IMG/VR virus record: IMGVR_UViG_3300028608_000917
Coordinates: 1-20,089 of that record
DNA: 20,089 nt
Source: a virus
Strand: one strand, 5' to 3'
Translations under genes and position numbers: made by a program
Shown here: positions 2,098 to 19,253 of the stretch, piece by piece
Position numbering within the stretch: position 1 is the first letter of the stretch
Layout: every line of letters starts with the position of its first letter
The notes under the pieces: model-generated
Database searches by the model: none
The model's input: the letters and a program-made list of their open reading frames with translations, nothing else
What the model was told of the DNA's origin: nothing

Positions 2098-5000
2098 ATG
2101 GTGTCGTGGCCGCTGAAGCGGATCGGTGAGGCGCTCATCGACGGACAGTGGGTGAGCCTGCCCCTGCGCGAGTCCACCAGCGTCACCATCAACCGGGGCA
2201 TCAGCGCCGAGGGCACCCTGGCCCGGCCCGGCAGCATGACGGTGCGGGTCAACGACGCCGACGCGACGCTCAGCCCGCGCAACGCCGAGAGTGAGCTGTA
2301 CGGGAAGTTCGGGCAGGGCACCCGCTTCCGGTTCCGTGTCGGCGACGTCCCCGACACCCCGGCCGCGACCATGACCGACACCTTCAACCGGACCGTGGCC
2401 AACGGGTGGGGGACCGCGGACTCCGGCCAGACGTGGGCGATCTGGGACCCGGCCGGCTCCTCCCCACCAGCCGCCAACTACAGCGTCTCCGGCGGGGCCG
2501 GGAAGTTCACCGTCACCGCCCTCAACAGCTCCCGCTGGATCACCACCGACGGCGCCGACTTCGACGACTTCGACGCCACCTTCACCATCGCCACCGACAC
2601 GCTGCCCGTCGACGACAGCGCCGTAGAGGGCATCCTGCTCACCGTCGCCGCCCGCATCGACCGCACGGCGATCACCATGTACTACGTCGACATCGAGCTG
2701 CTGCCCGACACCGGCCTGGCCGGCAACGCGGGCCTGCGCGTGGTCCTGTCCGGATACCGCGCAGACACCGTCATCACCCCGGCCATCACCCCCGTGCAGC
2801 AGATCCCCGGCCTCACCTACGCCGCCGGCGTCCCCCTGCGGGTGCGGCTGCGCTGCGAGGGCCCGGAGATCCGCGCCCGGGTGTGGCCCGACGGCGACAC
2901 CGAGCCGGAGCACTGGCACCTCCAGGCCTACGACACCACCTACACCGAGGGCGGCGAGTTCGGCTTCCGCGGCTCGGTACGCGGCGACCTCACCGCCACC
3001 CCCGTCGCCATGAGCTTCGCCGACCTCGAGCTCCGGCCCCTGGCCGACGCCCCCGACGCGGTACGGATGACCGGCGAGGTCTCCGGCATCGACCCCTACG
3101 AGAGCGAGGACGGGCCCGAGAGCGCCTACGTCGACCTCGACGTGGCCGGGGCACTGCGCCGCTACGACGGCCCCCAGAAGCCCCTCAAGAGCGCGCTGCG
3201 CAGGCACGTGGGCATCTACGCCTCACAGGCCTACTGGTCTTTCGAGGAGGGCGCCCAGGGCGACATCCACGTGGCCGAGGTGGGCGAGCAGTCGACCACC
3301 GGACCGCTGACCGCCACCGGCCTGGAGTTCGCCAAGGACTCCACCCTGGTCGGCAGCGGCCCGCTGCCCACCGTCAAGGCCGGCGGCACCCTCAGGTCCG
3401 CGCCGATCCCGGGCGAGAACACCGGCTATTGGTCGCTCTACCTGATGTTCCGGATCCCCACCGCGAGCTTCCCCGCCAGCGGCGAGCACCAGATCCTTTC
3501 GTGGACCACGGGCACCGCCACCTTCACGGTGTTCGCGGAGACCATCGCCAGCGTGCCGTGGATCCAGCTGCGCGGCACCGCCACCGACGGCACCGACCTC
3601 GGCACCGTCGGCATCTCCAACACCAACCTGCTCGCCGCCGGATACCCCGACCTGCGCGACAACTGGCAGCAGCTGAAGGTGTACGCCCAGCAGTCCGGCG
3701 CCAACACCACGGTGCGCCTCGCCGTCGCCTACCCGGGCACCACCGGCCTCGGCGCCAACCTCGCCTCCGCCGCCATCAACGCCGACCGGGTGCGCCGCAT
3801 CAACACCACCTTCGGCACCGGCGTCGCCGGCATGAGCATCGGCCACCTGGCCACCTTCGGCAGCGCCACCACCGACTCGTTCGTCAGCCCCAACATCTAC
3901 GGCGCCACGAACAACCCCCTGGCCTGGGCATTCGGCGCCCCGGGCCTACGCGCCCGGGACTTCATGTCCGTCCTCGCTTGCGACCAGGCCGTGGCCCTGG
4001 ACGTGTACGGTCCCGCCGCCACGCTGCTCGGCCCGTACACCACCGACTCCTTCGTCTCCCTCGTGCGGGCGGCCGCGGACACCGACCTCGGCCTGCTCGT
4101 CGAGCGCCGCGACGGGATCGGCCTGGAGTACTACAGCCGCGAGTCCCTCTACAACCGGCCCGTCGACCTGGTCCTCGACTACGCGTCCGGCATGGTGTTC
4201 GCGCCGTTCGAGCCAACGGACGACGACAAGGGGCTGGCCAACGTCCTCACGGTGCGCCGCAAGAACGGCTCCGAGGCCACCGCCGAGGTCACCAGCGGCC
4301 GCCGCTCCACCCAGGCCCCGCCCGACGGCATCGGCATCAAAGAGTCCAGCGCGGAGACGATCGTGCTGGCCGACAGCCAGCTGCCCGACCAGGCCGGCTG
4401 GCGCCTGCACCTGGCCACGTGGGACGAAATGCGGGTGGCCAGCCTCACCCTGAAGATGGCCAACCCCCGCATGCGAGGCCTCCTCGACGCCGTCCTGGCG
4501 CTGCGCGAGGGCTCCCGTATCCAGGTCATCAACACCCCCGTCCGCTACGGGCGGGAAGGCTTCGACCTGCTGGTGCGCGGCAGCCGCGAGGTGCACGCCG
4601 AGGGCGTCTTCGACGTCACCCTCAACTGCGCCCCCTACGGCCCCTACGTGATCGGCGTCGTCGCCGTCCACGAGGACTTTGAGGACACCACCCTCGAGGT
4701 CTCCGCCACCAACGGCGGCAACGCCTCGTGGGCGCGCTCGCAGCTGCACTACAACTCGGGTGTCTGGTCGTTGCGGTCCGGCGCGATCGGCAACAACCAG
4801 ACGTCCGACTGGATCTGCGCGGTGCCCGACGGGGCCACGGAAATGCGGTTCTGGTACTGGACGTCGAGCGAAGCCGCGGGCCCGGGCTTCGCCGGTGACC
4901 GGCTCATCGTCCTGGTCGACGGCTTTCAGGTGCTGCTGGCGCAGGGCGTCACCGGGTGGACGCAGAAGATCGTGCCCGTCGCCGGGGCAAGCAGCGTCAT

Positions 5001-8296: not shown

Positions 8297-9052
8297 TCAG
8301 CCGCGGGGTGGCTGCCCGTACACGCTCACCCACCGGTCGCCGCGCATCACGATGTCCGCCGTCTCGACGGCGCGGCCGGTGGCCTGGTCGTAGTAGGTCC
8401 GCTCGATGGCGAGGACCGGGCCGGGCGGGGTCATGCCGAGGGACTGTGCCTCCGCGCGGGTGGCGAGCCGGGCGCGGACCCGCTCGACGGGATCGCCGAC
8501 CTCGATGGAGAGGACCCGCATACGGGCGGCCACGCCGACGCCGGCGTAGGGGCCGACCTCGGGCAGTGCGACCAGGGAGGAGCCAGTCACCTCGAGCGGC
8601 TCCCACGACTCGGCCAGCTGCACCGGCTGCTCGTCGGCCAGGTACGTGTACGAGGTGTGCATGACGGCTGCGCCTGGCTGGATACCCAGGCGCGCGGCGA
8701 CCGACTCGCTGGCCTTCTCCGTGGTGGAGTCGTGCCGCCACGTGCCGACCGCGCCCTGCTTGGCGGCGCCCTCGGCGAACGGGCTGTCCTCGCTGCGGCG
8801 CCGGTGCTGGCGGACGAGGAGCTCGGGTGTCTCCTGGCTGCGGACGTAGTGGCCGGCCCCGTGGCGGGAGACGACCAGGCCGTCGTCGACGAGCACCTTG
8901 TAGGCGCCGGTGGCGATGGAGTTGCTGCCGCCGTACTGGGCGGAGATCTCGGCGACGGACGGCAGGCGGGTGCCGGGTGGGAGTTCGCCGGATTCGATCC
9001 GTGCGCGGAGTTCCTCGGCGACCCGCAGGTACAGCGGCGGCTCCGTGCTCAC
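8297..9052 (-). CDS. GntR family (HutC/UTRA type) transcriptional regulator
   Basis: The 251-residue product has an N-terminal winged helix at about residues 5-72 (YLRVAEELRARIESGELPPG, then RLPSVAEISAQYG and LVSRHGAGHYV), the classic GntR DNA-binding domain. A UTRA ligand-binding domain follows from about residue 95 to the end, with the typical RVRARLATRAEA and ERTYYDQATGRAVE elements. The GTG start at 9052 is preceded on its strand by GGGAGGG. It is divergent from three small genes, with palindromic operators between. The arrangement recalls KorSA-type regulators of actinobacterial integrating elements, which repress a neighbouring transfer or replication gene. In this phage it could control the divergent small genes and itself. 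The ligand is unknown. Confidence 0.88.
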   Translation of the reverse strand: MSTEPPLYLRVAEELRARIESGELPPGTRLPSVAEISAQYGGSNSIATGAYKVLVDDGLVVSRHGAGHYVRSQETPELLVRQHRRRSEDSPFAEGAAKQGAVGTWRHDSTTEKASESVAARLGIQPGAAVMHTSYTYLADEQPVQLAESWEPLEVTGSSLVALPEVGPYAGVGVAARMRVLSIEVGDPVERVRARLATRAEAQSLGMTPPGPVLAIERTYYDQATGRAVETADIVMRGDRWVSVYGQPPRG

Positions 9053-10160: not shown

Positions 10161-11666
10161 GTGAGCCACACTCAGGACATGAAGACCACCCAGTCGGCGG
10201 GCGGCCGGACGCGCGCCGTCATCTACTGCCGCATCAGCCAGGACCGCACCGGAGCCGGCCTCGGCGTCGACCGCCAGCGCGAGGACTGCGAAGCCCTCGC
10301 CACCAGCCAGGGCTGGGACGTCGTCGAGACCTACGTCGACAACGACATCTCGGCCTACAGCGGCAAGAAGCGCCCCGGCTACCGGCAGATGCTCGCCGAC
10401 CTCAACGAGGGCAAGGCCACCGTCGTCATCGCCTGGCACACCGACCGGCTGCACCGCTCGCCGACCGAGCTGGAGGAGTACATCAACCTGTCCGACCGGC
10501 GCGGCATCTCGACGCACACGGTGCAGGCCGGGACCGTCGACCTCGCCACACCGTCCGGCCGGATGACCGCCCGGATCCTCGGCGCCGTCGCCCGCCAGGA
10601 GTCCGAGCACAAGGGTGAGCGCGTCGCCCGGGCGCGCCGGCAGAAGGCCCTCAACGGTGACTGGATGGGCGGCATCCGCCCGTTCGGCTGGGGCCTACCC
10701 ACCGGCGAGACGAAGAAGCGGGTCGACCGCAAGACGGGCGAGGAGGTCGAGGAGCCGGAGCTGGACATGCTGAAAGCCGTGCCCGAAGAGGCCGAGGCAC
10801 TGCGGTACTGGACCGACGAGATCCTGTCCGGCGGATCGATCCGGTCACTCGTGCGCTGGTGCGCGGACAAGGGGATCACCACGACGCGCGGGAACCCGGT
10901 CACCCACACCGACATGCGCGACATGCTGCTGCGCCCGAGGAACGCCGGAATCGCCGTCTACAGGGGCGAGGAGGTCGGCCGGGGCAGGTGGGACCAGATC
11001 GTCGAGGAAACGAAGTACAGGGCCGTCGTGGCGATCCTGAGGGACCCGTCACGGACGACGACACCGGGAGCGACGCCGAAGTGGCTGGGCTCGCTGCTGT
11101 ACCGGTGCGGCCGGGGCGCGTGCACCCGCTTCGTGTACGCGACCCAGTCCGGCGGCCGCAGCTACCCGTCGTACCGGTGCCAGGACGGGCACGGCGGCGG
11201 CCGGCGCGCCGAGGTGGTGGACCAGTACGTCGAGGACACGATCGTCGAGCGGCTGTCACGGGACGACGCGCACGAGCTGCTGGAGCCGGTGCCGGACGGC
11301 GTCGACGTGGCCGCGCTCCAGGCGGAAGCCGAGGGGATCCGCGGCCGGATGCGGGACCTGGGCGGCCTGTTCGGTGCCGGGCAGATCGACATGGTCGCGT
11401 TCACCGAAGGCACGGACACGGCGCGCGCGCAGCTGGAGGGCGTGATGTCACAGCTGGCTCGGGCGGCGACGGTGGATCCGCTCGTCAGCCTGGTGGGGGC
11501 GCCGGATGTACGTAAGGCGTGGCGCGGGATGGAGCTGGACCGGCAGCGGGTGGTGCTGCGGTCACTGGTCGAGGTGACCCTGAAGACCCCGCGCCCGGGC
11601 CGCATGCCGGACGGCGGATACTTCGACTACGACGCCGTGGTTTTCAAGTGGGTGCGAGGCAAGTGA
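10161..11666 (+). CDS. int: Large serine recombinase, phage integrase
   Basis: The 501-residue protein catalyses attP x attB recombination through a phosphoserine link. The resolvase-type catalytic domain covers about residues 16-165, with nucleophile S26 in VIYCRISQD and conserved arginines in DRQREDC and TDRLHRSP. A recombinase domain follows (about 190-300; GWMGGIRPFGWG-like segment, GGSIRSLVRW, TRGNPVTHTDMRDML). The zinc ribbon has C316, C321, C340 and H344. A coiled-coil-like stretch spans about 383-436, inserted where these enzymes control synapsis. Two starts are possible: GTG 10161, used here, and ATG 10179. Neither has a clear ribosome-binding site. A candidate att palindrome ends one base before GTG 10161. 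The downstream neighbour converges nine bases away. No recombination directionality factor could be identified. Confidence 0.95.
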   Translation: MSHTQDMKTTQSAGGRTRAVIYCRISQDRTGAGLGVDRQREDCEALATSQGWDVVETYVDNDISAYSGKKRPGYRQMLADLNEGKATVVIAWHTDRLHRSPTELEEYINLSDRRGISTHTVQAGTVDLATPSGRMTARILGAVARQESEHKGERVARARRQKALNGDWMGGIRPFGWGLPTGETKKRVDRKTGEEVEEPELDMLKAVPEEAEALRYWTDEILSGGSIRSLVRWCADKGITTTRGNPVTHTDMRDMLLRPRNAGIAVYRGEEVGRGRWDQIVEETKYRAVVAILRDPSRTTTPGATPKWLGSLLYRCGRGACTRFVYATQSGGRSYPSYRCQDGHGGGRRAEVVDQYVEDTIVERLSRDDAHELLEPVPDGVDVAALQAEAEGIRGRMRDLGGLFGAGQIDMVAFTEGTDTARAQLEGVMSQLARAATVDPLVSLVGAPDVRKAWRGMELDRQRVVLRSLVEVTLKTPRPGRMPDGGYFDYDAVVFKWVRGK

Positions 11667-13980: not shown

Positions 13981-14546
13981 CCGACCCGATCACCACGTTC
14001 TCCGGAGCCCACCCGTACCGGCCCCAGTGCGTTGTCACCGCGGCCCGGGAGGTCTTCGAGAAGGTCTTCGAGAAGAGCCTGCACGTCGCGATCCCCGAGC
14101 TGGCCGTCAAGGTCGCCGAGGTCATCACCACCGACGTCAGCAAGGGCCGGTGCCCCCGCTGCCACGACCCGCTCTACCCAGACGTGAAGCCCGGGAACTG
14201 GAAGCCGGCCGGGACCCGAGCCCTGCCCTGTCGGTGCCTGCCCGTCTGCGAGACCTGCGCTTCCTGGATCGAGCCGATCATCGGGACCAACCCGGTCACG
14301 GCCTGGCCCACCGACACGGATCTCGACGACGACGGCGAGGAGACGCGCAAGGAGCACGAGCACGAGCGCGTCATGCGGCTGAAGGCACAAGCCGAGACCG
14401 CGGTTCTGGAGGCCGGGCCCGGCGGTCTGGTCCTCGTAACCACCGAGGGTGTGGCCCCGGTCGTCGTCCAGCCTCGTCCGCATCCGGGCGGCTGGCTGGA
14501 GTTCGGCTACGACGACACCGACGACCAGCGGGAGCGCACGTCATGA
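13977..14546 (+). CDS. Early protein with Cys-rich zinc-binding region
   Basis: ATG 13977 overlaps the preceding stop (ATGA) and gives 189 residues. A helical N-terminus (REVFEKVFEKSLHVAIPELA) is followed by a metal-binding stretch with C59-x2-C62, C85-x-C87 and C91-x2-C94. That number of cysteines could hold one or two zincs. An acidic linker (TDTDLDDDGEETRKEHEHE) and a C-terminal beta-rich part follow. A nucleic-acid- or protein-binding role is possible; no named family is recognised. Confidence 0.6.
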   Translation: MTDPITTFSGAHPYRPQCVVTAAREVFEKVFEKSLHVAIPELAVKVAEVITTDVSKGRCPRCHDPLYPDVKPGNWKPAGTRALPCRCLPVCETCASWIEPIIGTNPVTAWPTDTDLDDDGEETRKEHEHERVMRLKAQAETAVLEAGPGGLVLVTTEGVAPVVVQPRPHPGGWLEFGYDDTDDQRERTS

Positions 14547-15180: not shown

Positions 15181-16041
15181 GTGACCGACACCATCGCCTT
15201 CAATAGGCTCGCCGATCTCCTCGGCGGCATGGGCGAGCCCACCCGCTACCAGGGCGGGGCGCTCCGTACCCGGGGCATCTGCCATGGCGGCGACTCCCCC
15301 AACACCGTCGCGATCAGGCGCGGTAACAACGGCGGCGTGGTCATCCACTGTCACAAGTGCGACGGCAACGCCGAGTTCCTCGCCGCCATCGGCTGGACCG
15401 AGGCCGACCTGTTCGACGAGCCGCTAGAGCGGCAGCACGACCGGCCCGCCGACGATACGTGGATTCCCTGCCGCGAGCGCGGGCACAAGCGCGTCGCACA
15501 GTACGTCTACCGCGACGAGAACGGCACCGTCGTCCACGGCGTCACCCGCTGCGACCACAAGTGCTTCGCCCAGTGGCGGCCAGAGCCGAGGACCAAGTCC
15601 GGCCGCCGCTGGTCCCTGAACGACGAGCGCGGCAACCGGCTCGTCCCCCTCGTGCCGTACCGGCTGCCCGAGCTGCTGGCGGCGCGAGAAGCCGACCGCG
15701 TCATCTGGATCGCCGAGGGCGAGAAGGACGTGAACGCCCTCGTCGACCACGGCCTGGCCGCCACCTGCAACGCGGGCGGCGCCGGAAAGTGGACCGCCGA
15801 CCACGCCCGCTACCTCGAAGGCGCCGACGTCACCATCGTCGCCGACCGCGACGACAAGGGACGCGAGCACGCCCTCCATGTTGTGGAGACCCTGCGCGGC
15901 CTGGCGCACTCCGTGTACGTCGTGCAGGCCAAGACCGGGAAGGACGCCGCCGACCACTTCGCCGCCGGCCACGTCGACTCCGAGTTCCACGAGGTGTGGG
16001 CCCCGGTTCCCTGCCCCGGAACCCCGGTGGTGCAGGGGTGA
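15181..16041 (+). CDS. Replication primase with zinc ribbon and TOPRIM domain
   Basis: The 286-residue protein would lay RNA primers for phage DNA synthesis. An N-terminal zinc site is visible as C34-H35 and C57-x2-C60 (ICHGG ... VIHCHKC). A region typical of phage primases follows, with YVYRDENGTVVHGVTR and LVPLVPYRLPELLAAREA. The TOPRIM core has E179 in AEGEKDVNAL and the D222-x-D224 pair in VADRDDKG, the metal-binding residues of this fold. GTG 15181 has AGAAGAGAG upstream. Its stop overlaps the start of the helicase gene (GTGA), so the two are co-translated and probably act together at the iteron block just downstream. Length suits a compact phage primase without its own helicase domain. 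Confidence 0.85.
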   Translation: MTDTIAFNRLADLLGGMGEPTRYQGGALRTRGICHGGDSPNTVAIRRGNNGGVVIHCHKCDGNAEFLAAIGWTEADLFDEPLERQHDRPADDTWIPCRERGHKRVAQYVYRDENGTVVHGVTRCDHKCFAQWRPEPRTKSGRRWSLNDERGNRLVPLVPYRLPELLAAREADRVIWIAEGEKDVNALVDHGLAATCNAGGAGKWTADHARYLEGADVTIVADRDDKGREHALHVVETLRGLAHSVYVVQAKTGKDAADHFAAGHVDSEFHEVWAPVPCPGTPVVQG

Positions 16042-17201
16042 CCGAGAAGCCCGACTGGCAGCCGAACGTAGACGCCGTGGAAGAACCCGTCGCCCGGCGC
16101 CTGGTCCTCACGCCAGCGAGCAGTATCCGGATCCGCCCGGTGCGCTGGCTGTGGGACACCACGCCCCCGGACGCGCCGCCCACATCGCACGGCCGCATCC
16201 CGCTGAACTCCCTGGCAATCGCGGCGGGCGGGCCGGGCCTCGGCAAGTCCCAGTGCGCCTGCTGGTTCACGGCGCGCATTACCACCGGGAGCCTGCCGGG
16301 CGAACTATGGGGCAAGCCCCGCAGTGTCATCTACGCGGCCACCGAGGACTCGTGGACGTACACCATCGCGCCTCGGCTCGTTGCCGCTGGCGCGGACCTG
16401 GACCGCGTCTTCCGTATCGACGTTCAGGACGACGACGAGCTGCACGCCCGGCTCACTCTGCCGAAGGACATCTCGTTGGTCGGCAAGGCGGCCGAGGAGT
16501 ACGGCGTTGGACTACTGGTCGCCGATCCCCTGCTGTCGATGATCGACAGCAGCATCAACGACTACCGGGCCGCCGAAGTCCGCTCCGCCCTGGAGCCGCT
16601 CGTCGCGGCCGCCGACAAGCACGGGTTCACGATCCTCGGCCTCGCCCACTTCACGAAGGCGGGCGGCGCCGATCCCCTCAGCAGGATCGCGGGCTCCGGC
16701 GCCTTCGGCCAGCTCATCCGCTCGCTCATCGCCTTCGCCAAACAGGAGAGCGAGGAAGGCGAGGAGGAGTTCGTCATGAGCCTGGAGAAGAACAACCTCG
16801 GCCGGCTCGGGCTGCCGTCATTCACGTACACCATCCAGCCGATCACGGTGGACACCGAGGAAGGACCGTCCTACGTCTCGCGGTTCGCGCTGGGACCGGA
16901 GTCGACGACCAGCGTCCGCGAGGTGATGCGCGCCGAGACGAACGGTGAGGGTGCCGGATCGAACGAGGTCGTCGAGTGGCTGCAGGGCTGGCTCACCGAC
17001 CTCGGCGGATCGGACGAAGCCCGCGAGATCAAGAAGGCGGCGCGCAAGGAGGGCTACAGCGAGTCCGCCGTCGACCGCGCGAAGAAGAAGCTCGGCATCC
17101 GTTCGAAGCAGCAGGGGTTCGGGCGAGACCGGACGTCGCACTGGTACCTGCCCGAAGCATGGTCGAAGGCCATGGCCGACGACCTCCCCCGTACAGCCTG
17201 A
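16038..17201 (+). CDS. RecA-fold ATPase, replicative helicase type (RepA/AAA_25-like)
   Basis: GTG 16038 overlaps the primase stop and gives 387 residues; the open frame upstream is a shadow of the primase gene. Walker A is GGPGLGKS (residues 64-71, K70), Walker B is GVGLLVADPL (D163), and LGLAHFTK is the following motif with the sensor histidine. This set is typical of RepA-type hexameric helicases (AAA_25). The C-terminal region from about residue 285 is charged and helical and may be a winged helix (EVVEWLQGWLTDLGGSDEAR, ESAVDRAKKKLGIR). It probably unwinds DNA with the primase. It lies directly upstream of the candidate origin, and its last codons run into that repeat block. Confidence 0.85.
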   Translation: MTEKPDWQPNVDAVEEPVARRLVLTPASSIRIRPVRWLWDTTPPDAPPTSHGRIPLNSLAIAAGGPGLGKSQCACWFTARITTGSLPGELWGKPRSVIYAATEDSWTYTIAPRLVAAGADLDRVFRIDVQDDDELHARLTLPKDISLVGKAAEEYGVGLLVADPLLSMIDSSINDYRAAEVRSALEPLVAAADKHGFTILGLAHFTKAGGADPLSRIAGSGAFGQLIRSLIAFAKQESEEGEEEFVMSLEKNNLGRLGLPSFTYTIQPITVDTEEGPSYVSRFALGPESTTSVREVMRAETNGEGAGSNEVVEWLQGWLTDLGGSDEAREIKKAARKEGYSESAVDRAKKKLGIRSKQQGFGRDRTSHWYLPEAWSKAMADDLPRTA

Positions 17202-17400
17202 CGTACATGACGTGCATGACGAGATTGGCCGTGACCTGCGACTTCTTCACAGGGTGTGGCTGACGAGATTGACGAGGTTGGTGACGAGATTGGGACGGCC
17301 ATCCTCACCAATCTCGTCACCCGGAATCGCATTCTCGTCACCAATCTCGTCACCGCAAAACAGCAGGTCAGCCCCAATCTCATCAATCTCATCAATCAAT
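17199..17400. repeat. Inverted iteron block, candidate replication origin
   Basis: GACGAGATTG occurs at 17218, 17262 and 17283 with a variant at 17271. The reverse complement CAATCTCGTC occurs at 17309 and 17342, with variants at 17330, 17375 and 17384 and a partial copy at 17393. A 12-base form, GGTGACGAGATT, is exact at 17280-17291 and inverted at 17310-17321 and 17343-17354. A nine-base series TGACGTACA, TGACGTGCA, TGACGAGAT runs from 17199 to 17225. One 60-base line here has 28 G+C, far below the neighbours. Iterons beside primase and helicase genes, with an A+T-rich end, fit an origin. The gap 17202-17455 holds this block and a small upstream ORF. Confidence 0.7.
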
Positions 17401-17423
17401 TTTGTGTGTAGGAGGGGACGAGC

Positions 17424-17459
17424 GTGAGCCGACCACCCGACTCGAGTAGGTCCTCGTGA
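17424..17459 (+). CDS. 11-codon upstream ORF (leader peptide candidate)
   Basis: GTG 17424 sits eight bases after a strong GGAGG (17411-17415). It encodes an 11-residue peptide rich in Ser, Arg and Pro ([11 protein letters not shown]) and stops at TGA 17457-17459. That stop overlaps the GTG start of the next gene (GTGA). The next gene has no good ribosome-binding site of its own, so ribosomes finishing this ORF could restart there. It may be only a ribosome-loading device. Confidence 0.45.
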   Translation: MSRPPDSSRSS

Positions 17460-17653
17460 ACGTCGACGACGTCGTGGCGGAGAAGATCGCCGCCGCCCGC
17501 GCCCGCGCCGAGGCCGCCAAGCGCCGGCGCGCAGCCCTCGCCGCCGCCCGGCAACGCGGCCTCGCCGCCCGCCACGCCCAGAAGCTCCGCAACCAGGCCA
17601 GCCGTGGGGATACGCCCACGGTTGCCGAACCCGCCGCCGAGGAGAACCAGTGA
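17456..17653 (+). CDS. Small basic helical protein
   Basis: The 65-residue product starts at GTG 17456, overlapping the short upstream ORF. Most of it is one Ala/Arg/Lys-rich helix ([20 protein letters not shown] and [20 protein letters not shown]) with an acidic, disordered tail ([11 protein letters not shown]). Such highly basic helices can bind DNA or RNA. Position next to the candidate origin makes a DNA-associated role conceivable, but no family is recognised. It overlaps the next gene by four bases. Confidence 0.55.
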
Positions 17654-18027
17654 CCGACCGCACCCTCACCCCCGGCCCACTCACCGCCGCCACCGACGAC
17701 ATCCGCGACCACGGATACGCCATCGTGCAGACCCGCATCGAACGCGTCCCCGTCGGCTACCGCAGCACCCTGTGCGCCGAGCCGGACGGATGCGCCCGGC
17801 CCACAACCCTCGTAACCGTCGCCCTCGCCGAGGTCACCGACGAGGGCGACGACGCCGTCGGCCTTCGCTTCGCGCGGGACGTCAACGGCGACATCGTCCG
17901 CATCCCAACCTGCGACGCGCACCGATGCGAGGCCAGCCACGACCTGTACTACGTGCTGACCGGCCGAACCCGACCGGACGGGATCCGCGCGTTCGACCTG
18001 CCCGGTCAGTACCTGAACTGGACCTGA
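17650..18027 (+). CDS. Hypothetical protein with Cys/His cluster
   Basis: The GTGA overlap at 17650 gives 125 residues. C42 and C48 and a later group C88, H91, C93 and H97 ([12 protein letters not shown]) could bind one zinc. Between them lie beta-strand-like segments ([15 protein letters not shown]). The C-terminus ends [11 protein letters not shown]. It may be a small zinc-stabilised accessory protein; no family is recognised. Three hairpins follow its stop. Confidence 0.55.
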
Positions 18028-18034
18028 CGACAGC

Positions 18035-18063
18035 GGCCGGGCCCGCGGATATCGGGCCCGGCC
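18035..18063 (+). terminator. GC-rich hairpin, first of three
   Basis: GGCCGGGCCCG (18035-18045) pairs perfectly with CGGGCCCGGCC (18053-18063) around a seven-base loop (CGGATAT). It begins seven bases after the preceding stop. There is no U tract, but position and stem strength suggest a terminator. Confidence 0.65.
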
Positions 18064-18079
18064 TCCCACCCAGCATCCC

Positions 18080-18110
18080 GCGACTTGCTTCCTCGCAGGA
18101 AGCAAGTCGC
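18080..18110 (+). other. Perfect 14-bp hairpin, second of three
   Basis: GCGACTTGCTTCCT (18080-18093) pairs without mismatch with AGGAAGCAAGTCGC (18097-18110) around a CGC loop. The stem is only moderately G+C-rich compared with ordinary terminators here, and no U tract follows. It could be an RNA structure or a protein-binding DNA palindrome. Confidence 0.6.
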
Positions 18111-18113
18111 CCC

Positions 18114-18140
18114 GACTGGGTGACAGCACGTCACCCAGTC
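18114..18140 (+). other. Perfect 11-bp hairpin, third of three
   Basis: GACTGGGTGAC (18114-18124) pairs perfectly with GTCACCCAGTC (18130-18140) around AGCAC. It lies three bases after the second hairpin and ends 19 bases before the HNH gene start, just ahead of its ribosome-binding site (GAAGGAG). It could influence translation of that gene or be a protein-binding site. Confidence 0.6.
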
Positions 18141-18159
18141 CAACCCGAAGGAGCCCGCC

Positions 18160-18708
18160 ATGGCAGGCGAGGCCGTGATGGCCCGGTTCTGGGCCAAGGT
18201 CAACAAGGCTGGATCCGTGCCCGAGCACGCGCCGGAAGTCGGGCGCTGCTGGGAATGGACCGGCGCCCAGGATGCCCACGGTTACGGACGTCTCACCGTC
18301 GGCGGCCAGTGGCGCGCCGCGCACCGCTGGTCCTTCGAGCTGGCCAAAGGTGCTATCCCCGCAGGCAAGTTCGTGCTGCACCGCTGCGACAACCCGGCTT
18401 GCATACGTCCCACCCATCTGAGACTCGGCACTCCACGGGAGAACACCGCAGACATGCACGCCAAGGGGCGCGCGGCCCGAGTCGGCCCCGTTGGCGAGCA
18501 GAACCGTCACGCGAAGCTCACCGCCCTGCAAGTGGTCAGCATCCGAGAACGCTTCGCCCGTGGCGAGCTGATCGTCCGCCTCGCTACCGATCACGCCCTG
18601 TCCGTGTCCTCCATCAGCTCCATCGTCAACGGGCGCTCGTGGGCGCACGTCGGCGGACCTATCCGACAGCCTGGCCAGCTCGGCCGGCGCGCACGAAAGG
18701 CGGCCTGA
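18160..18708 (+). CDS. HNH homing-type endonuclease
   Basis: The 182-residue protein starts at ATG 18160 behind GAAGGAG; ATG 18178 is an alternative. The HNH_3-type nuclease domain spans about residues 9-105: C30-W-E-W-T-G, HGYGR, AHRWSFE, then VLH74-RCDNP-x-C81-x2-P-x-H86-[11 protein letters not shown] and KGR. A C-terminal DNA-recognition part follows ([36 protein letters not shown]), with the intron-encoded repeat and HTH style of phage homing enzymes. It would cut DNA at a specific site and promote its own spread. It stands between the triple hairpin and SSB, suggesting insertion into the early operon. No intron halves are visible around it. Confidence 0.88.
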
Positions 18709-18710
18709 CC

Positions 18711-19253
18711 ATGGCCAACGAAACCGTCATCACCGTCGTGGGGAATCTCGTGGATGACCCCGAGCTGAGGTTCGCTCCGTCCGGTGTCGCGGTAGCGAAG
18801 TTCCGGGTGGCGTCGACGCCCAGGGTCTTCAACAAGACCACGAACGCTTGGGAAGACGGCGACGCCCTGTTCCTCACCTGCTCCGTCTGGCGGCAGGCCG
18901 CCGAGAACGTCGCCGAGTCCCTCACCAAGGGCATGCGCGTCATTGTCCAGGGCCGCCTCAAGCAGCGGTCCTATGAGGACGGGCAGGGCGTGAAGCGCAC
19001 CGTGTACGAGCTCGACGTCGACGAGGTCGGACCGACCCTCGCCCGCGCCACCGCCAAGGTCACGAAGAACCCGGCGGGCACTGGGTCCGTACCGGCGAAC
19101 GGAGCCAGTTCCGTACCAGCGAACGGAACTGGTGACCCGTGGGCGAACGCCCGGCCCGCCAACGGCCAGCAGCAGGGCGGCGGCTGGGGCAACCCGCCCG
19201 CCCAGCAGCAGCCCGCCGCCCAGGGTGTCGCTACTGACGAGCCCCCCTTCTAG
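18711..19253 (+). CDS. ssb: Single-stranded DNA-binding protein
   Basis: The 180-residue protein starts at ATG 18711; the long open frame upstream is a shadow. The OB-fold lies at about residues 1-112 with hallmark segments [38 protein letters not shown] and [21 protein letters not shown] flexible Gly/Gln/Pro/Asn-rich linker follows, containing a doubled SVPANG unit. The acidic tip DEPPF is the conserved partner-binding tail of bacterial-type SSB. It would coat single strands during phage replication and recruit enzymes through its tail. It belongs with the primase and helicase functionally, though the HNH gene and others lie between. The ribosome-binding site is AAAGG. Confidence 0.93.

Follow-up and report, generated by a model that had tools for sequence, protein, structure and literature searches.

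Directly behind a helicase-type gene in the DNA analyzed here lies a noncoding block of short facing repeats, and the question that this locus raises is whether the block is an origin of replication and, if it is, which protein reads the repeats. The DNA (hereafter, the window) is the whole of an IMG/VR record, 20,089 bases in length, and is part of a temperate phage. An earlier note, made from the letters alone, had called the block a candidate phage replication origin and had left the identity of the binding protein open.

The repeat array behind the helicase gene

The earlier note counted at least nine repeat copies that read forward and then inverted, and this count stands: positions 17217 to 17394 contain nine copies of TGACGAGATTG, none with more than one mismatch, of which four are forward and are followed by five inverted. 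With one mismatch allowed, the 20,089-base window has 9 matches to the 10-mer and 0 outside the array block, while dinucleotide shuffles of the entire window give a mean of 1.1 matches and a maximum of 6 (versus the 9 observed, in 178 bp). Two degenerate forward copies precede them, at 17199 and 17208. As the note also stated, the array is noncoding; the helicase open reading frame ends at 17201, and the block begins at the helicase stop codon. Its other end is indeed A+T rich, and the 40-mers at 17374 to 17413 have the lowest GC content of the full window (35%). The locus has both clustered short repeats in a noncoding block and an adjoining A+T-rich region, which are two of the features sought in an iteron origin. 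The features are as follows.

15181 to 16041 (+): Toprim primase gene (Pfam Toprim_2, 1.2e-5; PHROG DNA primase, 7.6e-22); its stop overlaps the helicase start codon
16038 to 17201 (+): candidate initiator-helicase gene, 387 aa, GTG start, for an ATPase of RecA fold and hexameric-helicase type with a predicted C-terminal winged helix (Pfam AAA_25, 1.2e-19; AlphaFold pLDDT 90; RSF1010 RepA, Z 19.6; DnaB, Z 19.7)
16959 to 17147 (+): winged-helix domain, codons 308 to 370, proposed to bind iterons (H-E-H-H-E-E in two models; Rpa2 winged helix, Z 8.7)
17061 to 17093 (+): recognition helix ESAVDRAKKKL, residues 342 to 352 (from the model; residue 346 tracks iteron sequence)
17073 to 17075 (+): D346 codon, inside the recognition helix
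17199 to 17216 (+): degenerate forward half-copies TGACGTACA (start 17199, in the stop codon) and TGACGTGCA (start 17208), from the sequence
17217 to 17227 (+): iteron 1, TGACGAGATTG (repeat match)
17261 to 17271 (+): iteron 2, TGACGAGATTG (repeat match)
17270 to 17280 (+): iteron 3, TGACGAGGTTG, 1 mismatch; TG common with iteron 2
17282 to 17292 (+): iteron 4, TGACGAGATTG (repeat match)
17309 to 17319 (-): iteron 5, inverted (repeat match)
17330 to 17340 (-): iteron 6, inverted, TGACGAGAATG, 1 mismatch
17342 to 17352 (-): iteron 7, inverted (repeat match)
17375 to 17385 (-): iteron 8, inverted, TGATGAGATTG, 1 mismatch
17384 to 17394 (-): iteron 9, inverted, TGATGAGATTG, 1 mismatch; TG common with iteron 8
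17232 to 17239 (+): second inverted motif, left copy, TGACCTGC (invariant in 7 aligned close relatives; present on plasmids L022 and L023)
17363 to 17370 (-): second inverted motif, right copy (GCAGGTCA on the + strand; kept in close relatives and on L022 and L023)
17374 to 17413 (no strand): A+T-rich end, candidate unwinding element (35% GC minimum; CAATCAAATTTGTGTGTA-like stretch kept in relatives)
18711 to 19253 (+): SSB gene, same replication module (Pfam SSB, 6e-30)

Measured from start to start, the steps between successive iterons are 44, 9, 12, 27 (at the turn), 21, 12, 33, and 9 bp. The spacings of 9, 12, 21, 33, and 44 bases given in the earlier note are therefore correct, but its reading of several of them as near whole helical turns does not hold for the recurring 9-bp step, which arises because adjoining 11-bp sites share a terminal TG (TGACGAGAT followed by TGACGAGATTG). 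In such 9-bp runs, TGACGAGAT is the repeating unit, and one last TG completes the series. The TGACCTGC/GCAGGTCA motif sits within the array; it is retained in all close relatives and almost retained on the plasmids described below. A nucleotide search with positions 16000 to 18700 against phage records returned no match.

Elsewhere in the window, an HNH endonuclease gene (18160 to 18708) lies between the array and the SSB gene; it has no match in the thirteen relative sequences compared and is likely a homing-type insertion. A large serine integrase gene (10161 to 11666), 75 to 83% identical in relatives, is located mid-element, between the lysis/tail genes and the replication module.

The helicase and its predicted C-terminal winged helix

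Pfam finds a single domain, AAA_25 (1.2e-19), in the product of 16038 to 17201. The AlphaFold model of the full-length protein (pLDDT 90.2, pTM 0.76, 35 sequences) has a RecA-type core that matches RSF1010 RepA (1g8y; Z 19.6 over 213 residues, 19% identity), DnaB (Z 19.7), and T7 gp4 (Z 19.4), and KaiC structures match the helicase model equally well. RSF1010 RepA is also recovered by a profile match (E 2.3e-6), and both scores point to a RecA-fold core close to 1g8y. No SF3/D5-type helicase domain was found in the helicase, for which Pfam reports AAA_25 only and the model fits RecA/DnaB/RSF1010-RepA folds.

The modeled C-terminal domain runs helix, strand, helix, helix, strand, strand, which is a winged helix, with residues 342 to 352 as its recognition helix. 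Since the search with the full-length structure leaves the C terminus untested, a separate check of this domain matters. When modeled alone (pLDDT 84.5), it has the same fold, and its best match, among many winged helices, is that of Pyrococcus Rpa2 (Z 8.7). A profile search of solved chains with the winged helix yielded no credible relative.

The earlier note saw no classical Rep initiator in the window, and this part of its account is upheld: ten window proteins and ten L022/L024 proteins gave no Rep-family match in Pfam. No classical iteron Rep initiator (Rep_3 and similar) was found among the proteins scanned, the helicase matching AAA_25 only. For the binding protein, which the note left open, we now propose the neighboring helicase as the most likely candidate, acting through its C-terminal winged helix.

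Conservation of the array in close relatives

Close relatives were taken from viral contigs (L006 to L010) and prophages of Streptomyces genomes (L011 to L013), with helicases 74 to 86% identical to that of the window; L006 is practically the same virus. In all of them the array is at the same site with the order of the arms unchanged and nearly all spacings kept, and in the closest relatives, L007 and L011, the spacings are identical to those of the window array. Presence of the repeats in relatives with the same primase-helicase pair had been suggested in the earlier note as a check on the origin, and the repeats are present. In the alignment, identity to the window is 90% for iterons, 75% for spacers, 61% for third codon positions at the end of the gene, and 42% for the region past the array. 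In L010 and L012, most copies have GACGA changed to GACGG (sixth base A to G), a concerted change that is as expected if a single protein reads all copies. L008 and L009 have full repeat copies at the second degenerate position (window TGACGTGCA).

The array travels with the helicase gene

Two complete circular Streptomyces plasmids, L022 and L023, encode helicases 73% identical to that of the window, and both carry the array. On L023 it directly follows the helicase gene. On L022 it lies at 14279 to 14433 and the helicase gene lies at 19218 to 21116, about 4.8 kb away with ParA and integrase genes between, which indicates that the array is not merely a 3' element of the helicase gene. There, the array is close to a homologue of window gene 17650 to 18027. 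(Our k-mer screen was limited to regions adjoining the helicase gene, and the L022 array, which lies away from that gene, therefore escaped it.) No other replication initiator was found among the main L022 proteins scanned. In a phage fragment (L014/L015), a gene that encodes Prim-Pol and AAA_25 domains in one chain overlaps at its 3' end with the same TGACGAGATTG array; the helicase part of L015 is about 37% identical to the window helicase, and L015 has no further window gene in common.

Of the window genes, only the one for the helicase with the predicted winged helix is found in all the array-bearing replicons compared, which are otherwise unrelated. The primase type varies (Toprim or Prim-Pol), and the helicase and array stay paired. 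The repeat occurs in two tandem copies in 32 other viral stretches, and it forms facing arms only where the helicase gene is present. The earlier note had also suggested testing the product of 17456 to 17653 for binding; that product is absent from L015, L022, and L023, all of which bear the array. Both array plasmids have annotated GntR-family regulators beside the helicase region (L022, 68 to 868; L023, 8251 to 9051), and the window has a GntR/UTRA-type regulator at 8297 to 9052 (-).

Arrays in the wider helicase family

We surveyed 145 non-redundant helicase homologues with enough sequence and called an array where at least 5 copies of some 10-mer, above the element's own shuffles, fell in the interval from -90 to +400 relative to the stop codon. 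Arrays are present behind the helicase gene in 51 of the 145 homologues. Control counts of at least 5 were obtained in 6 of 145 segments inside the gene and 8 of 143 segments further downstream. No array is seen at that location in roughly two thirds of the wider family, Rando14 and Omnicron among them. Behind their copies of the helicase gene, Corynebacterium plasmid pCG2 and mycobacteriophage Boilgate each have a distinct array, which in Boilgate consists of TGCACCGACTG repeats and lies between genes 66 and 67. The repeat types differ by lineage (TGACGTGACTG, TGAGACGAATG, TGAGAGTTATG, TGGTCCGACTG, TGGCCTGACTG, TGCACCGACTG, and others), and a TG-N7-TG frame, which was chosen to maximize the fit, fits 36 of 53 arrays. 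Among arrays with at least 6 copies, the step between same-strand neighbors is 9 bp in 56 cases and 12 bp in 20, and a 9-bp pair occurs in 24 of 38 such arrays.

The densest array surveyed (L092) has seventeen ACAGATTGG-type copies with a 9-bp period behind its helicase gene (stop at 3649). The same layout is also seen with another helicase class: in L383 (8479 to 8615), facing TGAGACGATTG-type iterons with a 9-bp period lie directly behind the gene for a 757-aa D5_N/DUF5906 replication protein that has no AAA_25 domain. Of two scans that started from the DNA, the one for TGACGTGACTG pairs found one array, already in the set, and the one for TGAGANGAWTG pairs found one facing array, behind a D5-type gene.

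The repeat sequence tracks the recognition helix

Residue 346, which immediately precedes the conserved R-A of the recognition helix, is D in the window. TGAC repeats are found in 13 of 17 arrays whose helicase has D or E at this position, compared with 0 of 36 with other residues (Fisher 2.8e-9; 0.0013 once collapsed to clusters of >60% ATPase identity). Within the window's own cluster (ATPase at least 67% identical), TGAC is found with D/E in 10 of 10 cases, versus 0 of 8 for others. In this cluster, Y at 346 pairs with TGAG (L028 and L049), and R-E, R-D, or R-T pairs with GAAGG- or GAAGA-type repeats (L031, L034, L173, L175, and L176). Four exceptions have D/E without TGAC (L261, L024, L329, and L178), the last of which resembles GC-rich background. 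In a partial Mantel analysis of the 37 frame-fitting arrays, iteron distance correlates with helix distance when ATPase distance is controlled for (r = 0.22; 13 of 2,000 permutations as high). ATPase distance given the helix also correlates with iteron distance (0.34), so shared descent explains much of the correlation between repeat and helix. The residue 346 pattern was first noticed in part of the same data. No new D/E-type array turned up in 396 further genomes of the phylum or in the two DNA-first scans.

Alternative explanations for the array

The array might be an operator, bound by a repressor or activator that controls the downstream SSB operon or the replication operon without a role in origin firing. 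In favor of this reading, the array is followed by a stretch resembling a ribosome-binding site and by a conserved T-rich end, and genes for HTH and GntR regulators are present in the window. However, the window's HTH and GntR genes are not common to L015, the genes past the array differ among the window, L015, and L023 while the helicase link is constant, and the repeat sequence follows the helicase recognition helix. A scan that may miss Streptomyces promoters found no sigma-70-like promoter in 16800 to 17800. We consider an operator unlikely. It is less likely still that host DnaA or another host factor recognizes the repeats and that the phage helicase is merely loaded there. Streptomyces origins carry many DnaA boxes, and the 9-bp spacing recalls these boxes, but the repeat is not a DnaA box, and it differs among elements whose helicases are >65% identical, in step with the helicase helix.

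We give an equally low probability to the possibility that the inverted arms are a structured hairpin (a cruciform, an RNA terminator, or a pRN1-like stem-loop) rather than protein-binding sites. The strand does fold (z = -4.55 versus shuffles), and pRN1 has a stem-loop origin behind its replication gene (PMC4234260). Facing iterons would fold in any case. Against a hairpin, there is no covariation (2 pairs changed on both sides versus 1.3 expected, and a covariation score reached in 75 of 500 shuffles), the arms mutate singly in L008 and L009, and a terminator scan found no T-tract terminator. That the repeats serve partition (as a parS-like site) or incompatibility is very improbable indeed: plasmids L022 and L023 have ParA genes, but none was seen in the window or L015, and the array is linked to the helicase. 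Each of these four readings is disfavored by the helicase link or by direct tests.

The array as a probable replication origin

From its sequence features and distribution, we conclude that the array block is very probably a phage DNA replication origin and that the helicase's own C-terminal tail probably reads the iterons. The joint statement, that a temperate phage-type element of Streptomyces replicates from this block and that the upstream helicase binds the block's iterons as initiator, is in our judgment likely. The proposal of an origin in the earlier note gains support from the repeats in relatives and on the complete circular plasmids L022 and L023, which have no other recognizable replication gene among those scanned. 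The GC-skew check that the note suggested gave a divided result. Detrended cumulative GC skew of L022 has an extremum at 14378, inside the array, but this extremum is a maximum. Cumulative GC skew of pCG2 has a maximum near the array start, nothing is seen at the array in L023, and a 37-kb relative has no inflection there.

We infer a course of binding, melting, loading, and bidirectional replication. Each winged helix would read one TG-N7-TG site, and the two facing arms would bring together protomers in two sets, from which helicase rings may assemble. The A+T-rich end would then open, the rings would load onto the two strands, with primers made by the adjacent Toprim primase, and replication would proceed outward.

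Discussion

The principle of an initiator helicase that binds iterons behind its own gene is already known from SaPI Rep. As described in PMC7581432 (citing Ubeda et al. 2007), the C-terminal domain of this initiator helicase recognizes iterons directly behind its gene, apparently as two hexamers, which is the plan that we propose for the window helicase. SaPI Rep is of the D5/SF3-type class (PMC7581432), whereas the window ATPase has a RecA fold (AAA_25, RSF1010 RepA-like) and the primase is encoded by a separate gene. For SCCmec Cch2, both binding and unwinding of a site of direct repeats just downstream of its gene have been demonstrated (PMC7581432). This system resembles the window in having repeats immediately 3' of a helicase gene, but the repeats are three of AAGTG type, the helicase is of another class, and there are no facing 9-bp arrays (PMC7581432). 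The pRN1 protein ORF904 is a primase-helicase with a C-terminal winged helix, and its origin, 3' of the gene, works when moved, which parallels the natural arrangement on L022; it differs in having an SF3 helicase and a stem-loop origin without iterons (PMC4234260). As summarized in PMC4234260, phage P4 alpha likewise combines a Toprim primase, a helicase, and an iteron-binding winged helix in one replication module, but in a single chain and with another helicase class. RSF1010 RepA (1g8y, Z 19.6) is among the closest solved helicase folds to the window protein. In RSF1010, according to the same source, the iterons are read by a separate protein, RepC, whereas in the window the helicase and proposed reader are in one chain.

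The use of this principle with an SF4/RecA-fold helicase, together with the apparent code, looks new. We found no description of the helicase-origin pair in the literature covered, which lies mostly outside subscription journals. More broadly, a large family of RecA-fold (SF4-type) helicases of actinobacterial phages and plasmids may be self-contained initiators, each with its origin behind its gene and read via the C-terminal winged helix by a simple code, in which TG is invariant every 9 bp and the variable bases are set by a few helix residues (at 346, D/E for TGAC and Y for TGAG). We regard the chances for and against this generalization as even. If it holds, origins could be located in elements that have yet to be studied, with the protein sequence as a guide to their specificities.

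Most actinobacterial phage origins and initiators are unannotated. For one family, this finding points to where the origin would lie, to which protein would read it, and to a rule that can be put to the test. It further suggests that an origin-reading domain can be part of a ring helicase of the DnaB/RSF1010-RepA fold, a type commonly believed to depend on a distinct initiator or loader. If this is true, origin recognition and helicase loading by one SF4-type protein would become directly testable, and compatible origins would become available for Streptomyces and mycobacterial vectors.
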